Origin: Sphaerisporangium siamense
GTDB lineage: Bacteria > Actinomycetota > Actinomycetes > Streptosporangiales > Streptosporangiaceae
Direction: 5' to 3'
NCBI RefSeq assembly: GCF_014205275.1
Contig: NZ_JACHND010000001.1
Coordinates: forward strand, 7,502,001-7,566,000
DNA length: 64,000 bases
Positions 31,466-37,860 of the stretch are shown here, piece by piece. The translations under genes were made by a program, and so were the position numbers. The notes beneath the pieces were generated by a model. It saw only the letters and a program-made list of their open reading frames with translations. It was not told the DNA's origin and searched no databases. Position 1 is the first letter of the stretch, and every line of letters starts with the position of its first letter.

Positions 31466-34294
31466 TCAGTGGTGCCGGGGGACGATGGATAAGTGGTTCT
31501 GGGCGGTTGTTACGGCCAGGTCGCCTTGGGTGTCGGTGCGGTAGACGTGGATGCCCAGCGTGCGCAGGCGGGTCAGGGTCAGCGGGGCCGGGTGGCCGTA
31601 GTCGTTGTCCTCGCCGACGCTGATCAGCGCCGCGCTCGCCCGGACCGCCGCGAGGAAGCGCGGATCCTGGCGAGCGGAGCCGTGATGAGGGATCTTGAGA
31701 ATGTCGGCCTGTGGGAGGCCGTGCTTCAGCAGGGCGTCCTGGGCCTCGGTCTCGACGTCGCCGCAGAGGAGCGCGGACCCGGCCGGCCATCGGGCGTGCA
31801 GGACGATGCTGGCGTTATTGGCCACCGACCCCTCCCCGGGGCCCGCCATGATCGCCTCCTCGGAAGGCCCCAGGACGGTGAGGGTCAGTGGACCGAGACT
31901 CCACGCCATACCAGGTGTCGCGATCCATTCAGGCGTCCGGCGCTGCTGAAGCGCCGCCGTCACCCGGCCCGCCTCCCCTCGTGACCGCTCACCCGGGCTG
32001 ACCAGGACGGCGCCCACCTGACGTGCCCGGAACACCCCGTTCAGGCCGCCCACATGATCGAAATGCGGATGGGTGAGCACCAGCAGCGGCACCTGTTCGA
32101 CGCCCAACTCCCGCAGACACCTGTCCACGAACGCCGGTTCGGGCCCCGTGTCCACGACGACCGCCCGGCCCGGCCCCGCCGCCAGGACGAGCGCATCGCC
32201 CTGGCCGACGTCACAGGACACCAGCAGCCAGCCGTCCGGCGGCCACGACGCCACGACCGGACGCACCACGAGCACGGCGACGATCGCTCCGCCGGCGATG
32301 GCGCACATGGCCAGACGCAACACCGGGCGCCGCAGAAGCAGCCAGAGCGCCACGGCCGCGACAGCCAGCAGAAGCAGCCCCACCGCTCCCCCAGGCCATG
32401 ACAGGGTGGCCGCGGGCAGACCCGCCGCCTGCCGGGCCACCCAGATGATCCAGCCCACGGCGTACCCGGCGGGCCACACCAGCCAGCGGGCGATCTCGAC
32501 GCTGACGGGCGCCACCAGCGAGGCCGCGAAGCCCAGCAGCGTGGCCGGGGCCACGGCAGGCCCCGCCAGAAGGTTGGCCGGGACGGCGACCGGCTCCACC
32601 TGGCCCGACATCAGCACGAGAAGAGGCGTCACCGCCACCTGGGCCGCACAGGGCACGGCTATCGCCTCGGCGGCGATCGTGGGCATGCGCCGGGCCATGC
32701 GGTCGCGCCACCGCGGCGCGAGAACCAGGATGCCTCCGGTGGCGAGCACCGACAGCGCGAAGCCGTACTCACGCGCCAGCCCCGGATCGAAGAGGACCAG
32801 TGCGAGCACGGTCGCGGCCAGGGCGGCGAGGCCGTCCCTGGAGCGGCCGGTGCCGAGCGCGACGGCCGCCACACATCCCATCACCAGGGCCCGCAGCACG
32901 CTGGGCGAAGGGCGGGCGACCACCGCGAAGCAGAGCATGCCGGCGATGGCCGGCACGGCGCGGGCCGCGAGCGGCAGCCCGGCCAGGCGTCCCATGACGA
33001 TCACCGCGCCCGCGACGATCGCCAGATTGGCCCCGGACACCGCGGTCAGGTGGCTCAGCCCGGCCGTGGCGAGGTCCCGCCTCACCTGCTCGTCCATCAG
33101 AGACAGATCGCCGACGACCAGCCCGGGCAGCAGACCCCGCTCCGCCGGGGGGAGGATGCCCGCGGCCTCGCGCAGGCCGGAGCGGAACATGCCCGCGATG
33201 CGCTGGGGTGTGGACGGCCCGGAAAGCACGTCCGGCGCTTTCGAGGCCAGCAGCACCGCGGCTGTGAGCGTCCCCGGCTCGGCGGGGCCGAGCCTGCCAC
33301 GTACCCGCACACGCTGGCTGGGCAGCAGCGCGTTCCACCCCGGCCCGTTGGCGAACACGACGACCGGGGAATCGGTTCTGGTTCTCGTCCCTGAGGCGCT
33401 CTCGACGACCTCGACCGAGCCTTGCACGATCACACGCTCGCGCCGTCCCGCCCCGTGATGTCCCGGCAGCCTCTTGGGGTCGCCGGTAAGCCTCATCTCG
33501 ACCGTCACGGGAGACCGCGTGACGGCGAGTGCAGCCACCGGGCTGGTAGTGACACTGTGAACCCGGAACCCCACCGCACACGCCACCGCCGCGACACACC
33601 CCAGAGCTCCAACGGCGACACTCCCCCACCATGCCCGAGCGCCGTAGCCTCGCGGGGTTTGAGCGACACAGCCCCGCGCGGTCTGAGCGACACAGTCAGA
33701 CCCCCTATGAGCGACACTCCGCAGCCCGGACTGTCTGAGGACGTCCCGCTCCCCGGCGCATCCGCCGGCGACCGGGATGATCGCCCCACCGTGTCGATGA
33801 GGACCGGCAGCAGCCGGATAGCGAGTCACACGCCCCACACGGCAGAACACACCAGCCATGTGACCGAGCACACGACCGACGTGATCGAGCACACGCCCCA
33901 GGCAGCTGAGCACATGCCCCAGGTAGCCAAGCGCACAAATCAGGTGACGGGGCGCATGAGCCAGGTGGTGGAGCACGCGATCCAGACGGCCGAGCAGACG
34001 GCCCTGGGGAAAGCGCACCAGGCCCATGTGGTGAAGCGCACGACCTTCGCGGTGCCCTATACGACCTGGGTGGCGAGCCGTATGGGCCTCGTCGCCCGCC
34101 ATGCGTATGAGAGTGATCGCAGCCACGGCCGACAAAGCCGTGACGGCCGTGATCACGCACGTCCGCACAGAGCAGTCCAGCAGCACAAGTGACGTCACCC
34201 AGGTGGTAACGGCAGGCGCGACGAGCCGAAGATCCCCGACACTGCGGCCTTTCTCTACCCCTGAATCAGACTTGGATGCCGGTCCGGACCCCAT
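31466..34294 (-). CDS. comEC: DNA internalisation channel protein ComEC, with a repeat-expanded linker
   Basis: The 942-residue protein is longer than the roughly 750-850 residues usual in actinomycetes. Two membrane segments near residues 20-65 (DLRLVAPAVTTWVTSLVLL) are followed by a linker of 160 residues. That linker carries a heptad tandem repeat (about 84-160) and an octad repeat (about 190-221), then a third helix. The Competence domain follows (HLTAVSGANLAIVAG, PSPSVLRALVMG). The C-terminal metallo-beta-lactamase domain has LTHPHFDHVGG, LLCGDVE and LKIPHHGS. ComEC takes single-stranded DNA across the membrane. ATG 34294 is the nearest start before DLRLV; no strong ribosome site is seen. 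Confidence 0.9.
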   Translation of the reverse strand: MGSGPASKSDSGVEKGRSVGDLRLVAPAVTTWVTSLVLLDCSVRTCVITAVTALSAVAAITLIRMAGDEAHTARHPGRIGHREGRALHHMGLVRFPQGRLLGRLDRVLHHLAHAPRHLICALGYLGHVLSCLGRVLDHVGRVLGHMAGVFCRVGRVTRYPAAAGPHRHGGAIIPVAGGCAGERDVLRQSGLRSVAHRGSDCVAQTARGCVAQTPRGYGARAWWGSVAVGALGCVAAVACAVGFRVHSVTTSPVAALAVTRSPVTVEMRLTGDPKRLPGHHGAGRRERVIVQGSVEVVESASGTRTRTDSPVVVFANGPGWNALLPSQRVRVRGRLGPAEPGTLTAAVLLASKAPDVLSGPSTPQRIAGMFRSGLREAAGILPPAERGLLPGLVVGDLSLMDEQVRRDLATAGLSHLTAVSGANLAIVAGAVIVMGRLAGLPLAARAVPAIAGMLCFAVVARPSPSVLRALVMGCVAAVALGTGRSRDGLAALAATVLALVLFDPGLAREYGFALSVLATGGILVLAPRWRDRMARRMPTIAAEAIAVPCAAQVAVTPLLVLMSGQVEPVAVPANLLAGPAVAPATLLGFAASLVAPVSVEIARWLVWPAGYAVGWIIWVARQAAGLPAATLSWPGGAVGLLLLAVAAVALWLLLRRPVLRLAMCAIAGGAIVAVLVVRPVVASWPPDGWLLVSCDVGQGDALVLAAGPGRAVVVDTGPEPAFVDRCLRELGVEQVPLLVLTHPHFDHVGGLNGVFRARQVGAVLVSPGERSRGEAGRVTAALQQRRTPEWIATPGMAWSLGPLTLTVLGPSEEAIMAGPGEGSVANNASIVLHARWPAGSALLCGDVETEAQDALLKHGLPQADILKIPHHGSARQDPRFLAAVRASAALISVGEDNDYGHPAPLTLTRLRTLGIHVYRTDTQGDLAVTTAQNHLSIVPRHH
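33632..33727. repeat. 24-bp minisatellite inside comEC
   Basis: About four imperfect 24-bp units, each containing TGAGCGACAC on the plus strand. On the comEC strand they encode octapeptides of the type SDCVAQTA, RGCVAQTP. The period is a multiple of three, so the frame is preserved. Confidence 0.75.
33815..34045. repeat. 21-bp minisatellite inside comEC (about 11 units)
   Basis: About eleven degenerate 21-bp units in tandem encode the heptads GRVLDHV, GRVLGHM, GHVLSCL, DRVLHHL and similar on the comEC strand. The opposite strand is also open, reading EHTPQAA-type heptads. Units differ mainly at third positions and in conservative changes, so the array looks old. It lies in the linker between membrane segments 2 and 3 of ComEC. 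Confidence 0.8.
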
Positions 34295-34802
34295 CGAAGT
34301 ACGCGAACTCCACGACTCAGACGACACCATCGTCCGAATCCTCCGGCCCCACGTGGACACCACCCGAAAGCCGCGTGCCAGGTCGAACGACTCAGCCCAC
34401 CACCTCACGTGCCCACCCCCTCGACGAGGCGGACCGATACGTCCAAGCGAAGGAGATCGCGCACTTGCACACGGCATGCGTGAAGGCGGCCGTTCTTACG
34501 GCCGACCCCACGGCGCAAGTCGTCGGAGAGCACCTGAGCGATCGGAGACTCCACGATGGAGAGGGGCGCAGAGATGTCGGACTGGAGGGCTGTAGCGTCC
34601 TTGGGATATGAGGTGACTCGGGAGACTTGGGGCGCCGGTTCGCGGGATCGGGACACCACCGGTTCACCGGGTCGGGGGCACCACCGGTTCACGAGATCGG
34701 GGCACCACCGGTTCGCAGGACCACGTGCTTGGGCGGGGTGGTGGGTGGTTCTGCGGCGGCGTGGTCGTGCGTTCTCAATGCGGTGTGTGGGGCGGTAGCG
34801 GT
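34295..34802. other. 508-base comEC-comEA intergenic region
   Basis: No supportable gene; open frames exist on both strands but lack family features or ribosome sites. It contains a 24/25-bp tandem repeat (34636-34714). comEA and comEC are usually nearly contiguous, so this gap looks like repeat expansion. Confidence 0.55.
34636..34714. repeat. 24/25-bp tandem repeat in the comEC leader region
   Basis: Three and a half copies of a unit beginning GGTTC and ending CACCACC (GGCACCACCGGTTC recurs three times). Copies differ by single bases and one insertion, so the period is not frame-locked here, in contrast to the arrays inside comEC and comEA. Confidence 0.8.
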
Positions 34803-36221
34803 TCATACGCGGACCTTGTCGCGGAGCGCGGCGAACTTGCGGTCGCCTATGCCCGATACGTCGCGGAGTTGCGTGATGCTGCGGAAACCCGCGTGGGTTT
34901 GGCGGTACTCGATGATGCGTGCGGCGAGGACCTCGCCGACGCCGGGCAGGGTTTCCAATTGGCTTGGTGTCGCCGCATTGAGGTCAAGTGGTTCGGCTTG
35001 AACGGCGGTCGGGTCGGCCGGCGGTGATACAAGGCCCTCGCCTGATGCCCCGGTACCGCTAGAGGCATAGTGAACGCCTTGGCCACGGCCGCCGACGACG
35101 ATCTGTTCGCCGTCGATGAGCTTTCTCGCCAGGTTCAGGGGGCCCGTGCCGCCGGATCTCACTCCGCCGGCTGCCTTCACCGCATCGGCCACCCGGGATC
35201 CGATGGGGAGGAGGACGATGCCCGGCTTCTTGACCTTCCCGGTGACATGGACGATCACCTGCGCCGTAGGCGACGGCATGGGGAAGGCACCCGGGGCCGC
35301 CGGTTGTGTACCGCCCGATGGGAAGGATGCCTTGGTGGCCGGGAGTGGAGAGCCGGCCATGGGGGACGGCGGGGCAACCGGCTCGGCGGACGGCCGCGAC
35401 CGCCAGGCGTAGATACCCCCGGCAACTGCCGCGAGCAACCCCAGAACCAACAGCAAACGCAGCCCCTTACGCCCCGGATCGAGAACGGAGCCATACTCGG
35501 CCACACCGTTCACCCGGCCACGAAGAGAGTCACCGACCTCGCCATGAACAGCGCCGTCCCTCCGAGCGCGCAGAGGGTCATTCACGCGATCATGCGGGGA
35601 ATCACGCACCCCACCAGGAATGGTGTCCTCCATCCGGCCGCGTAGGGGGTCATTCACGCGACCATGCAGAGACTCACTCACCTGCTCGTGAGGAGTGCCG
35701 TCCTCCCAGCCATCCAGAGGATCGTTCACCCGACCGTGCAGAGAAGCACTCATTTCGGCATGGACAGAGCGGACCATCCGGCCGTGCAAAGGGTCATTCA
35801 CGCGACCGTGCAGAGAATCATTCAGCCGGCCGCCGGGAGAGTCATCCACCTCGTCGCGCGAGGGGTCGTCCACCGGGTCGTGGAGAGAATCGTCCCCCTG
35901 GACGCGGAGGGAGCCGTCTACTCGACTGCTGGGAGAGTCATTGACCTGGCTGTGTAGAGGGGCGGTCGTCAGGGATTTGTTTGTTCGGGTGCGGAGGAAG
36001 TTGGTCAGTTTGGTGTGGAGAGGGCGGGGTGGGGTGGGTTCGGCGTGGATGCGTGTCGCGGGGGGCGGGGCGTGTTCGGGATCGCGTGCGCCGGTTTGCG
36101 GGACGTCCTCGTGATCGGGAACGTTTTCGTGGGCGGGCCACAGGTCGGATCGGCGTCTGCGGGCATACGCGTCGGGGCCCGATATCTCCTCGACCTCAGG
36201 CGCGTCGTAAGGGCGTGCCAT
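34803..36221 (-). CDS. comEA: Competence DNA receptor ComEA (SLBB plus helix-hairpin-helix) with octapeptide repeat region
   Basis: The 472-residue protein is about twice the usual length. The N terminus (MARPYDAPEVEEISGPDAYA) is cytoplasmic. Residues about 91-242 are nineteen octapeptide repeats (GRVNDPLH, GRMVRSVH and similar). A membrane helix (LRLLLVLGLLAAVAGGIYAW) follows, then a Pro-rich spacer, an SLBB domain (VIVHVTGKVKKPGIVLLP), and a C-terminal double helix-hairpin-helix DNA-binding domain (LDLNAATPSQLETLPGVGEV). ComEA binds incoming duplex DNA outside the membrane and hands it to ComEC. GGGGGAGG precedes the ATG at 36221 by 2 bases; the frame is open to 36356. Confidence 0.9.
   Translation of the reverse strand: MARPYDAPEVEEISGPDAYARRRRSDLWPAHENVPDHEDVPQTGARDPEHAPPPATRIHAEPTPPRPLHTKLTNFLRTRTNKSLTTAPLHSQVNDSPSSRVDGSLRVQGDDSLHDPVDDPSRDEVDDSPGGRLNDSLHGRVNDPLHGRMVRSVHAEMSASLHGRVNDPLDGWEDGTPHEQVSESLHGRVNDPLRGRMEDTIPGGVRDSPHDRVNDPLRARRDGAVHGEVGDSLRGRVNGVAEYGSVLDPGRKGLRLLLVLGLLAAVAGGIYAWRSRPSAEPVAPPSPMAGSPLPATKASFPSGGTQPAAPGAFPMPSPTAQVIVHVTGKVKKPGIVLLPIGSRVADAVKAAGGVRSGGTGPLNLARKLIDGEQIVVGGRGQGVHYASSGTGASGEGLVSPPADPTAVQAEPLDLNAATPSQLETLPGVGEVLAARIIEYRQTHAGFRSITQLRDVSGIGDRKFAALRDKVRV
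35496..35951. repeat. 24-bp minisatellite inside comEA (about 19 units)
   Basis: Roughly nineteen 24-bp units encode the octapeptide consensus GRVNDPLH on the comEA strand. Several units are almost identical (GRVNDPLH, GRVNDPLD, GRVNDPLR, GRVNDPLR-like), others have diverged. All unit lengths preserve the frame. The array sits in the cytoplasmic N-terminal region before the single membrane helix. Confidence 0.85.
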
Positions 36222-36749
36222 GTCCTCCCCCGAGGGTGTCGGATGATCTGCGTGGACGTGTGTGCGGGGCCGCCAGGGCGCTCCTAGAGGAGCGAGCGCA
36301 CGCAGCCGGGACACCGCGGCGTCGCTCTCCTGAACAGACCTGCTGACCGTTCCCACGAGGGCGAAATTACGTGGGCGTGGACAGCCCTGAATCGGCCGAA
36401 GCCGGTTCTGTGGATAACCGAGCCGCTGTATGGAGGGCCGCGCCGCGGAGAACCTCTACGGAGGAGTGACCACCGCTACGTACGCCCGACTGTTCCTTCA
36501 GCGGATCCGGGCCGTGTACCTCGACGGGACGACGGTCGGCCAGGTGAACGTCTGGCTCGACCAGCGACTGCGCGCCCTGCACGTCCTGAACGGCTCTTCA
36601 CGCGGTCCGGGCGTATCCGTCGTCGGTCAGCCCTAACAAAGAAGCAGCCCAGACCGGCAAAGGGCGGTCCTGGCTATAGACGGCGTCTCTGGCCATGGCG
36701 GCCACTCCTAGACCGCCCATTCGGTAGAGCCGTCCGCGTGAGGTGTCTG

Positions 36750-37327
36750 AGCGATCTGGGTAGAGATGCGCCCCTCATCCGCTGCTCGCGCCTTTCGTTC
36801 GCGCCTTGCGCTTGTGCCCTTCGTTCGCGCCTTGCGTTGGCTGGTGGCGCAGGTGGTGGGTGGGATCGCGGTGCTTAGCCACGATGGCGGGTCACGGGTG
36901 GGCTCAACTCACCTCAGCCATTGAGCCTTCTCTTTGGGCGGGATGGTCTGATGTTTGCGGCGGGGATGCCTGGGCGGTTCGCGGGCGTGAATCCGGCGGG
37001 GTTTGCGCCTCGGGTTCGCTGATGGCGCAGGTGGTGGGAGCGATCTGGGTAGAGATGCGCCCCTCATCCGCTGCTCGCGCCTTTCGTTCGCGCCTTGCGC
37101 TTGTGCCCTTCGTTCGCGCCTTGCGTTGGCTGGTGGCGCAGGTGGTGGGTGGGATCGCGGTGCTCGGCCACGTAGGCGGGTCACGGGTGGGGGCAACTCA
37201 CCTCGGCCGTTGAGCCCTCTCTTTGGGCGGGATGGTGTGGGGTTTGCGGCGGGGATGGCTGAGCGGCCGCGGGCGTGAGTACGGGTTCGTTCGTGTTTTG
37301 GGTTCGCTGGTGGCGGGTGGTGGGTGC
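36750..37327. repeat. 289-bp tandem duplication, two copies
   Basis: Copy one starts at 36750 (AGCGATCTGGGTAGAGATG) and copy two at 37039. The first 126 bases are identical, the remainder is around 80-90 percent alike by eye. Each copy carries an internal 17-bp direct repeat, TTCGTTCGCGCCTTGCG, twice. A third, decayed start (GCGATC ... GATGGCGGGTC) follows near 37328. There is no transposase or terminal inverted repeat. Confidence 0.9.
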
Positions 37328-37479
37328 GATCACTGTGGTGGGGCGCGATGGCGGGTCGGGGGTGGGTGGTGGGCTCGTTGGTCGGCGTGCCTGGTTCTGA
37401 GCTTTCGGCTTGCCCTCCGCTTTCTGTGGCCGGCAGTTGCCGCTGGCCTGGCCTCATCGTCCGCGCTGGCCTTCAGCTT

Positions 37480-37566
37480 CGCCTTGGCCCCGTCTCCGCC
37501 TTGGCCCCCTATCCGCCTTGGCCCTCTCTCCGCCGCCCTGGCTCCATCTCCGCCCTGGCCCGGTCC
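37480..37566. repeat. 17-bp tandem repeat, about five units
   Basis: Units of the form CGCCTTGGCCCCGTCTC occur head to tail: three at 17 bp, one of 20 bp, one partial. A simple pyrimidine-rich array. Confidence 0.75.
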
Positions 37567-37599
37567 TCTGCTCTGGCCCTGGCGCTTTCCTGCTGGTCT

Positions 37600-37860
37600 G
37601 GGGGAATTCAAAGGCGGGTGTCTGGGTGTCTTGGCGGGATTGATAGTGGGGGTAGGGGGGTCTATTCGGCTAGGTGGTTACTGAGTGTGTGTTTAGGGGG
37701 TTTAGGGAGGTGGATCGTCTATTGGTGGGTTATTTGGGGGCGGGGGCGTGGTGGGTTGTGTGGGAGGGCTATCTGGGGGCGGTTAGGTCAGCGGGGTTGG
37801 GGGTTGGGTGAGGGTGAGGTGGGGTGGCTAGGGGGGAGGTGGGTCAGGGTAGGGGTGATG
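37600..37860. other. G-rich tract at the 3' end of degV
   Basis: The plus strand has many runs of three to six G (for example GGGGGTAGGGGGG near 37653 and GGGGGCGGGGGCG near 37735) with T-rich spacers. Several G-quadruplexes could form on this strand; the degV transcript would be C-rich here. The tract enters the last 25 codons of degV. Confidence 0.6.

Follow-up and report, generated by a model that had tools for sequence, protein, structure and literature searches.

In-frame tandem repeat arrays in comEA and comEC of Sphaerisporangium siamense and a conserved N-terminal motif in the ComEA proteins of its family

In this work, we analyzed a 64,000-bp stretch of the genome of Sphaerisporangium siamense (family Streptosporangiaceae; genome 8.51 Mb, two contigs), hereafter called the window (NZ_JACHND010000001.1, 7502001-7566000), in which two adjacent competence genes, comEA and comEC, both contain tandem repeat arrays that preserve the reading frame. 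Both genes, the arrays within them, and the array between them were read on the minus strand, and positions are those of the window. The comEA coding sequence (34803..36356; 517 aa, GTG start) encodes a protein with the N-terminal motif AVSRLRAL (aa 14-21; 36294..36317), which fits a pattern found across the family, [AG]xxRLxx[LVIM]. A predicted membrane helix (aa 296-318; 35403..35471) has a mean predicted local distance difference test score (pLDDT) of 90 for aa 301-310 and 82 for aa 311-320. According to Pfam and this predicted helix, the membrane anchor precedes an SLBB-type middle domain (aa 368-421; E 5.4e-12), which is followed by a C-terminal helix-hairpin-helix DNA-binding domain (HHH_3, aa 452-516; E 2.9e-18, exceeding the Pfam cut-off); together, these domains occupy 34809..35255. 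Against the NCBIfam model TIGR01259, ComEA scores 60 bits, under the cut-off of 152. The comEC coding sequence (31466..34477; 1003 aa from the first in-frame start) encodes both a Competence domain (Pfam, E 2.2e-50) and a lactamase-like domain with its metal-binding motif (Lactamase_B, E 6.2e-17), matches solved ComEC chains by sequence (best E 4e-58), and scores 165.5 bits against TIGR00361, under the cut-off of 190. It retains AVSGAN, HPHFDH, and HHGS, which we take to be catalytic motifs. The true start of comEC may be a GTG at 34408 because resemblance to the relative G004 begins there (by eye).

The original prediction, made from the sequence of the window, placed about nineteen 24-bp repeats ahead of the membrane helix of ComEA and about eleven 21-bp repeats plus a shorter 24-bp array in ComEC. 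All of these were recovered. In ComEA, 19 diverged 24-bp units occupy codons 132-283 (35508..35963), between the N-terminal motif and the membrane helix. In ComEC, about 11-12 units of 21 bp (33806..34057) and about four clear units of 24 bp (33602..33745, ending at the third transmembrane segment) both lie in the loop between transmembrane segments 2 and 3 (TM2-TM3). The self-identity of each region was calculated at each lag and compared with that of 300 codon shuffles, none of which reached the values observed: for ComEA, 0.56 at lag 72, 0.51 at lag 96, and 0.50 at lags 24 and 48; for ComEC, 0.54 at lag 21 (codons 126-235) and 0.52 at lag 24 (codons 241-290). Two control stretches from protein cores had no comparable peak (highest z scores 3.0 at lag 82 and 3.3 at lag 42). 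The in-gene arrays are therefore coding minisatellites, i.e., in-frame tandem units with a period that is a multiple of three and a signal above chance. The peak at lag 72, which equals three times 24, is a higher-order repeat beyond what had been predicted, and it indicates that three 24-bp units of ComEA were duplicated together. Because the units have diverged, Tandem Repeats Finder (TRF) detects only the best-preserved fragments of the in-gene arrays (e.g., 33646-33695 in comEC).

A third array, likewise foreseen, lies between the two genes (34635..34714; period 24, 3.3 copies, TRF score 116), and the lag-24 signal of the entire intergenic gap is weak (z 3.7). This gap measures 325 bp here (34478-34802), compared with 90 bp in G004 and 60 bp in another relative, G007, and the two open reading frames (ORFs) overlap by 4 bp in 25 of the 47 pairs examined. 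The claim that the proteins are otherwise intact holds for the family domains and the ComEC motifs, with the qualification that the gap holding the third array sets the two genes apart.

To place these arrays in a genomic context, we sampled 60 stretches of 20 kb in addition to the window, used GC bias to predict 929 coding sequences (CDSs) with a length of 120 aa or more, and ranked them by the strongest 180-bp tandem signal in each. ComEA ranked third and ComEC twelfth. At a z score of at least 6.5, an array threshold chosen after the first survey, 22 of the 927 other CDSs passed, compared with none of their 927 codon-shuffled versions; the corresponding rates were 7/158 in G007 and 4/156 in G004. 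Among the top 23 CDSs, 20 of the 21 unrelated to competence were given to Pfam (rank 13 was left out). Twelve of the 20 match families of unrelated kinds, including a tetrapyrrole methylase, a nitrite/sulfite reductase-type protein, and an AMP-binding enzyme, and the other eight have no match at E 1e-5. Also among the twelve are ribosomal protein S2 (L102:5937-7163), initiation factor IF-2 (L101:16310-19513), a sigma-70 factor (L076:5348-7063), and a signal peptidase (L102:16363-17379). One repeat-bearing CDS encodes a pentapeptide-repeat protein, a class in which the repeat itself is the fold. With 22 other CDSs passing the threshold and family matches of unrelated kinds among the repeat-bearing CDSs, repeat growth is a general habit of this genome and arrays are ordinary in it. 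A repeat process specific to competence genes was rejected on the same grounds. A role as DNA uptake sequences found no support either, as the array DNA of comEA and comEC matches only itself genome-wide at E 0.001 in a search that did not scan for motifs of about 10 bases.

Arrays in coding regions are filtered by frame. Among TRF arrays with a period of at least 9 in the genome sample, the period is divisible by three in 123 of 137 coding arrays versus 29 of 45 noncoding ones, the noncoding stretches being ones that may contain undetected genes. The counts are 8/8 versus 2/8 in the window and 19/25 versus 6/9 in G007. As a separate observation, which bears on the idea of a local hotspot, the window contains noncoding arrays at a higher density per kb (eight in 9.3 kb) than the genome sample does. 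Those upstream of comEA (36786-37127 and 37447-37601) include 13-bp arrays, two copies of which are 289 bp apart, and arrays of 17, 20, and 24 bp.

For comparison among relatives, we examined the loci of 10 other genomes of the genus and 40 genomes of the family outside the genus. The latter were hand-chosen from 90 with a match, mainly the better-scoring ones, and the sample leans to near relatives. For all relatives, gene calls, starts, and membrane helices were derived by simple scripts. Counting the window genome, ComEA was found in all 51 loci and ComEC in 47. The ComEC ORF extends past the locus in three of the 47, and two of these three (G022 and G119; more than 1400 aa, without AVSGAN) are possibly wrong frames. 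Arrays at the threshold used above are present in 12 of the 51 ComEA proteins, every one beginning before the membrane helix, and in eight of the 47 ComEC proteins, where they occupy five different places, namely, the N-terminal tail, the TM2-TM3 loop, the presumed oligonucleotide/oligosaccharide-binding (OB) region, a membrane-domain loop, and the lactamase domain. Other CDSs of the same loci have arrays in 6 of 142 cases, three of them from one locus (G038), and the excess is significant without correction for kinship for both ComEA and ComEC (one-sided Fisher p 0.0002 and 0.0075, respectively). Arrays in the two genes also tend to co-occur (5 loci with both, 6 with ComEA only, 3 with ComEC only, and 33 with neither; one-sided Fisher p 0.011, kinship likewise uncorrected).

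Unit sequences and lengths vary from species to species, and when 22 arrays were compared pairwise, no match was better than E 3e-4 (between opposite strands), followed by a 50-base match at E 0.001 and an 18-base match at E 0.003. Since no kinship is detectable among them, the arrays look separately born. The most recent-looking one in the set belongs to G108 (L143), in which the 98% identity of the ComEA units at lag 66 suggests a recent expansion; the ComEC of this genome has a 15-bp array (GGDLR). Between the window genome and G004, identity in the ComEC core is 91%, and the TM2-TM3 loop is 162 aa in the former versus 90 aa in the latter, i.e., 216 nt longer. Length differences between orthologues are in whole codons and fall at matching sites, and the suggestion that the arrays are variable-length spacers is supported. 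In G010 (L030), the contig stops inside the ComEC TM2-TM3 loop, apparently in another repeat array (by eye), and this ComEC was left unscored for that reason.

Selection on the window arrays is weaker than on the protein cores. Between units of the ComEA array, the ratio of nonsynonymous to synonymous differences (pN/pS) amounts to 0.64 at lag 24 and to 0.56 at lag 72, where the other frames give 1.24 and 0.95, and the two ComEC arrays have values of 1.02 (21-bp array) and 0.88. Cores compared with G004 have lower values (0.32 for ComEA and 0.21 for ComEC) that point to purifying selection. The window arrays are thus less constrained than the cores, with that of ComEA not entirely free. Twelve arrays of other genomes, a set from which the G004 ComEA entry was left out because it had been calculated at the wrong lag (33 rather than 27), range from 0.28 to 1.21, with six at 0.28-0.65 and six at 0.79-1.21. 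With purifying selection on both cores and the ComEC motifs kept, the idea that the arrays disable DNA uptake is unsupported. Separately, pS to G004 (L024) is 0.56 in the ComEA core versus 0.22 in the adjacent ComEC core, and this difference between neighbors may reflect recombination of comEC between lineages.

The ComEA proteins of this family share a conserved N-terminal motif that is reported here as new. The pattern [AG]xxRLxx[LVIM] was defined on the genus and then tested on the 40 tails outside the genus, where the strict form occurs in 32 (shuffle mean 1.7, maximum 6), or in 31 when restricted to the first 110 residues (mean 0.9, maximum 4), and a relaxed form occurs in 35 (mean 3.0, maximum 10). 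Over the entire set, the relaxed motif is present in 46 of the 51 ComEA proteins, in 29 of which it lies exactly 12 residues past the nearest upstream MR or VR. Flanking residues outside the pattern are also common (E in 29, R in 31, and A in 22 of the 46). In an alignment of 33 of the 46 pattern-picked fragments (A1; 13 left out), the R is invariant and the L conserved, which is not independent evidence because the pattern demands these residues; the shuffle counts do provide independent evidence. The motif R and L are encoded by several codons, which says no more than that conservation is not at the level of the DNA. Named relatives agree by eye, with AESRLRSI in a Nonomuraea ComEA and a weaker match, TDRLRVL, in an Actinomadura ComEA. 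Among class-level tails collected by BLASTP, a looser core, picked after seeing the tails, occurs in 23 of 42 outside the family (shuffle mean 11.3, maximum 19); the tip, in a less strict form, may be present throughout the class.

The distance between this motif and the membrane is highly variable. It spans 25-685 residues among the 46 genomes (median 121.5), a 27-fold range, and the part from the membrane to the C-terminus measures 182-264 residues in all 51. In all 12 array-bearing ComEA proteins, a relaxed motif precedes the array. This argues for a start that lies upstream, with the array inside the protein, and the GTG start of the window gene is supported by the conserved motif that comes shortly after it. 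The recurrence in one segment of arrays that have no detectable kinship suggests that the length of the ComEA linker is free and the tip is not. Thus, the ComEA arrays rewrite a tether linking a conserved, docking-like tip to the membrane.

On which side of the membrane these segments lie can be judged from known proteins. An N-terminal membrane region anchors ComEA, whose DNA-binding part is periplasmic (PMC9747964), and the residues ahead of the helix should therefore be cytosolic. The OB fold of ComEC has a predicted extracellular location in Gram-positives (PMC12455585), and the TM2-TM3 loop should be cytosolic because one membrane segment separates it from this fold. By this reasoning, the predicted placement of the arrays on the cytoplasmic side or in linkers is supported for the ComEA tail and the ComEC TM2-TM3 loop of this genome, with the reservation that ComEC arrays of relatives also lie elsewhere. 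The structure model of ComEA, in turn, has no helix or strand at aa 70-294, in line with a disordered tether, followed by the membrane helix and the more confident SLBB and helix-hairpin-helix domains; ahead of these, a helix at aa 10-19 is predicted at low confidence.

Taken together, we consider it probable that these arrays are coding minisatellites produced by local duplication and kept in tolerant linkers, and that in ComEA they form a tether between a conserved docking tip and the membrane. Local tandem duplication would create coding minisatellites in many genes of this genome, and these would persist where the protein tolerates extra length, with selection retaining mostly whole-codon steps. 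In ComEA, the tolerant site would be a cytosolic tether that leads from the conserved, probably helical motif to the membrane helix, with the outer domains binding DNA. The motif probably docks to a cytosolic partner, and the tether may let it search while its own length and sequence remain nearly free, a plan that would resemble that of FtsZ, whose C-terminal linker bears a conserved tip. The ComEC arrays, in several permissive places, are probably passive, and we expect no effect of the arrays on uptake.

Several observations weigh against this account. The frame filter gives no contrast in G004 (28/30 coding versus 10/10 noncoding arrays), and the pN/pS of 0.56 in the ComEA array shows some amino-acid constraint, such that some restriction may act on the repeat peptide. 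The strict motif is missing from eight of the 40 family tails, including one of just 11 aa, and a few of the 32 matches lie far from the start and are possibly due to chance. In tails from beyond the family, the frequency of the strict motif comes close to chance level (6 of 42; shuffle mean 1.9, maximum 7). The ComEA model was built on three sequences with a mean pLDDT of 48.7, and the helix at aa 10-19 has a pLDDT of about 44. Furthermore, a profile search of the window genome with alignment A1 found only ComEA convincing; the runner-up (E 2.4e-4) corresponds by eye to the C-terminal end of a NeuB-like protein, and the third hit has an E of 0.008.

Other explanations must be weighed against the same evidence. 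It is very hard to credit that the arrays result from assembly error, which the original prediction named among its possible refutations, or from a wrong gene start, and are not truly in the proteins. Starts were assigned mechanically, and the first start of some relatives is well upstream of the motif, which leaves some room for a misplaced start; against this, the motif precedes the array and shares its frame, the diverged units are unlikely to be assembler copies, and the locus sits in a contig of 8,487,127 bases. Purely neutral growth, in which tail and motif have no present function and the arrays are tolerated slippage products of a GC-rich genome, would account for arrays in many unrelated proteins, for the pN/pS of 1.02 in the ComEC array, and for units that vary between species. 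We nonetheless regard it as unlikely, since an N-terminal motif so far above shuffles across the family argues that the ComEA tail is not functionless, and arrays are more frequent in ComEA (12/51) and ComEC (8/47) than in flanking genes (6/142, kinship uncorrected).

Two adaptive alternatives appear more remote than neutral growth. Under a contingency locus, changes in copy number would vary uptake between cells and thereby tune or switch competence, and both the very similar ComEA units of G108 (0.98 at lag 66) and the kinship-uncorrected co-occurrence of arrays in the two genes fit this idea. However, with in-gene periods in multiples of three, a copy change is unable to switch the frame, and the divergence of the window's own units makes fast slippage unlikely; we therefore view such a locus as quite improbable. 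The same low standing applies to repeat peptides that bind DNA, membrane, or a partner and are kept for multivalency. The reduced pN/pS of the ComEA array and of six relatives' arrays (0.28-0.65) would be expected in that case, but the six other relatives' arrays are at 0.79-1.21, units differ in sequence and length by species, and 39 of the 51 ComEA proteins are under the array threshold.

Follow-up value lies in the conserved ComEA tip rather than in the arrays themselves. An odd repeat has led to a testable claim, namely, a conserved tip on a probably cytosolic ComEA tail with a linker of 27-fold length range, and the recurrence of arrays without detectable kinship in one ComEA segment amounts to a natural experiment. 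A further step, which we put forward tentatively and rate at rather less than even chances, is that the ComEA of this family is two-sided, with DNA-binding domains outside and, inside, a helical tip on a repeat-rewritten tether that couples incoming DNA to a cytosolic partner. Candidates for this putative docking partner are ComFC, DprA, a single-stranded DNA-binding protein, or a pilus motor. If true, the coupling of tip and partner would add to the transformation of actinobacteria a step that has not been described. In the actinobacterium Micrococcus luteus, of which trpE16 is a laboratory model for transformation, the process is abolished by comEC deletion (PMC4322843). We found no paper in the open-licence literature on such a ComEA tip or on repeats in comEA or comEC.

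Compared with known systems, the ComEA described here shares with Gram-positive ComEA of B. subtilis and Geobacillus a single anchor, a middle domain, and a helix-hairpin-helix DNA-binding domain (PMC9747964). Unlike those proteins, it has a long tail ahead of the anchor, in which a conserved tip is joined to a linker built from repeats, and the main text of that paper does not use the word "cytoplasmic". Known ComEC consists of an OB fold, a competence domain, and a lactamase-like domain (PMC12455585); the latter two domains and their motifs are present here, and the difference lies in the added in-frame arrays at sites that differ by species. Work on protein tandem repeats and disorder likewise describes in-frame repeats under relaxed selection (PMC7230257, PMC5120217), whereas the arrays seen here show no detectable kinship and turn up repeatedly in one segment of orthologous competence proteins. 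The closest parallel in design is the FtsZ C-terminal linker, which is disordered, hypervariable in length and sequence, and ends in a conserved short peptide that binds partners (PMC12607630). The ComEA of this family similarly has a conserved tip beyond a hypervariable linker. The FtsZ tip is C-terminal in a non-membrane protein and the ComEA tip N-terminal in a membrane protein, and the likeness is therefore one of analogy, not homology.

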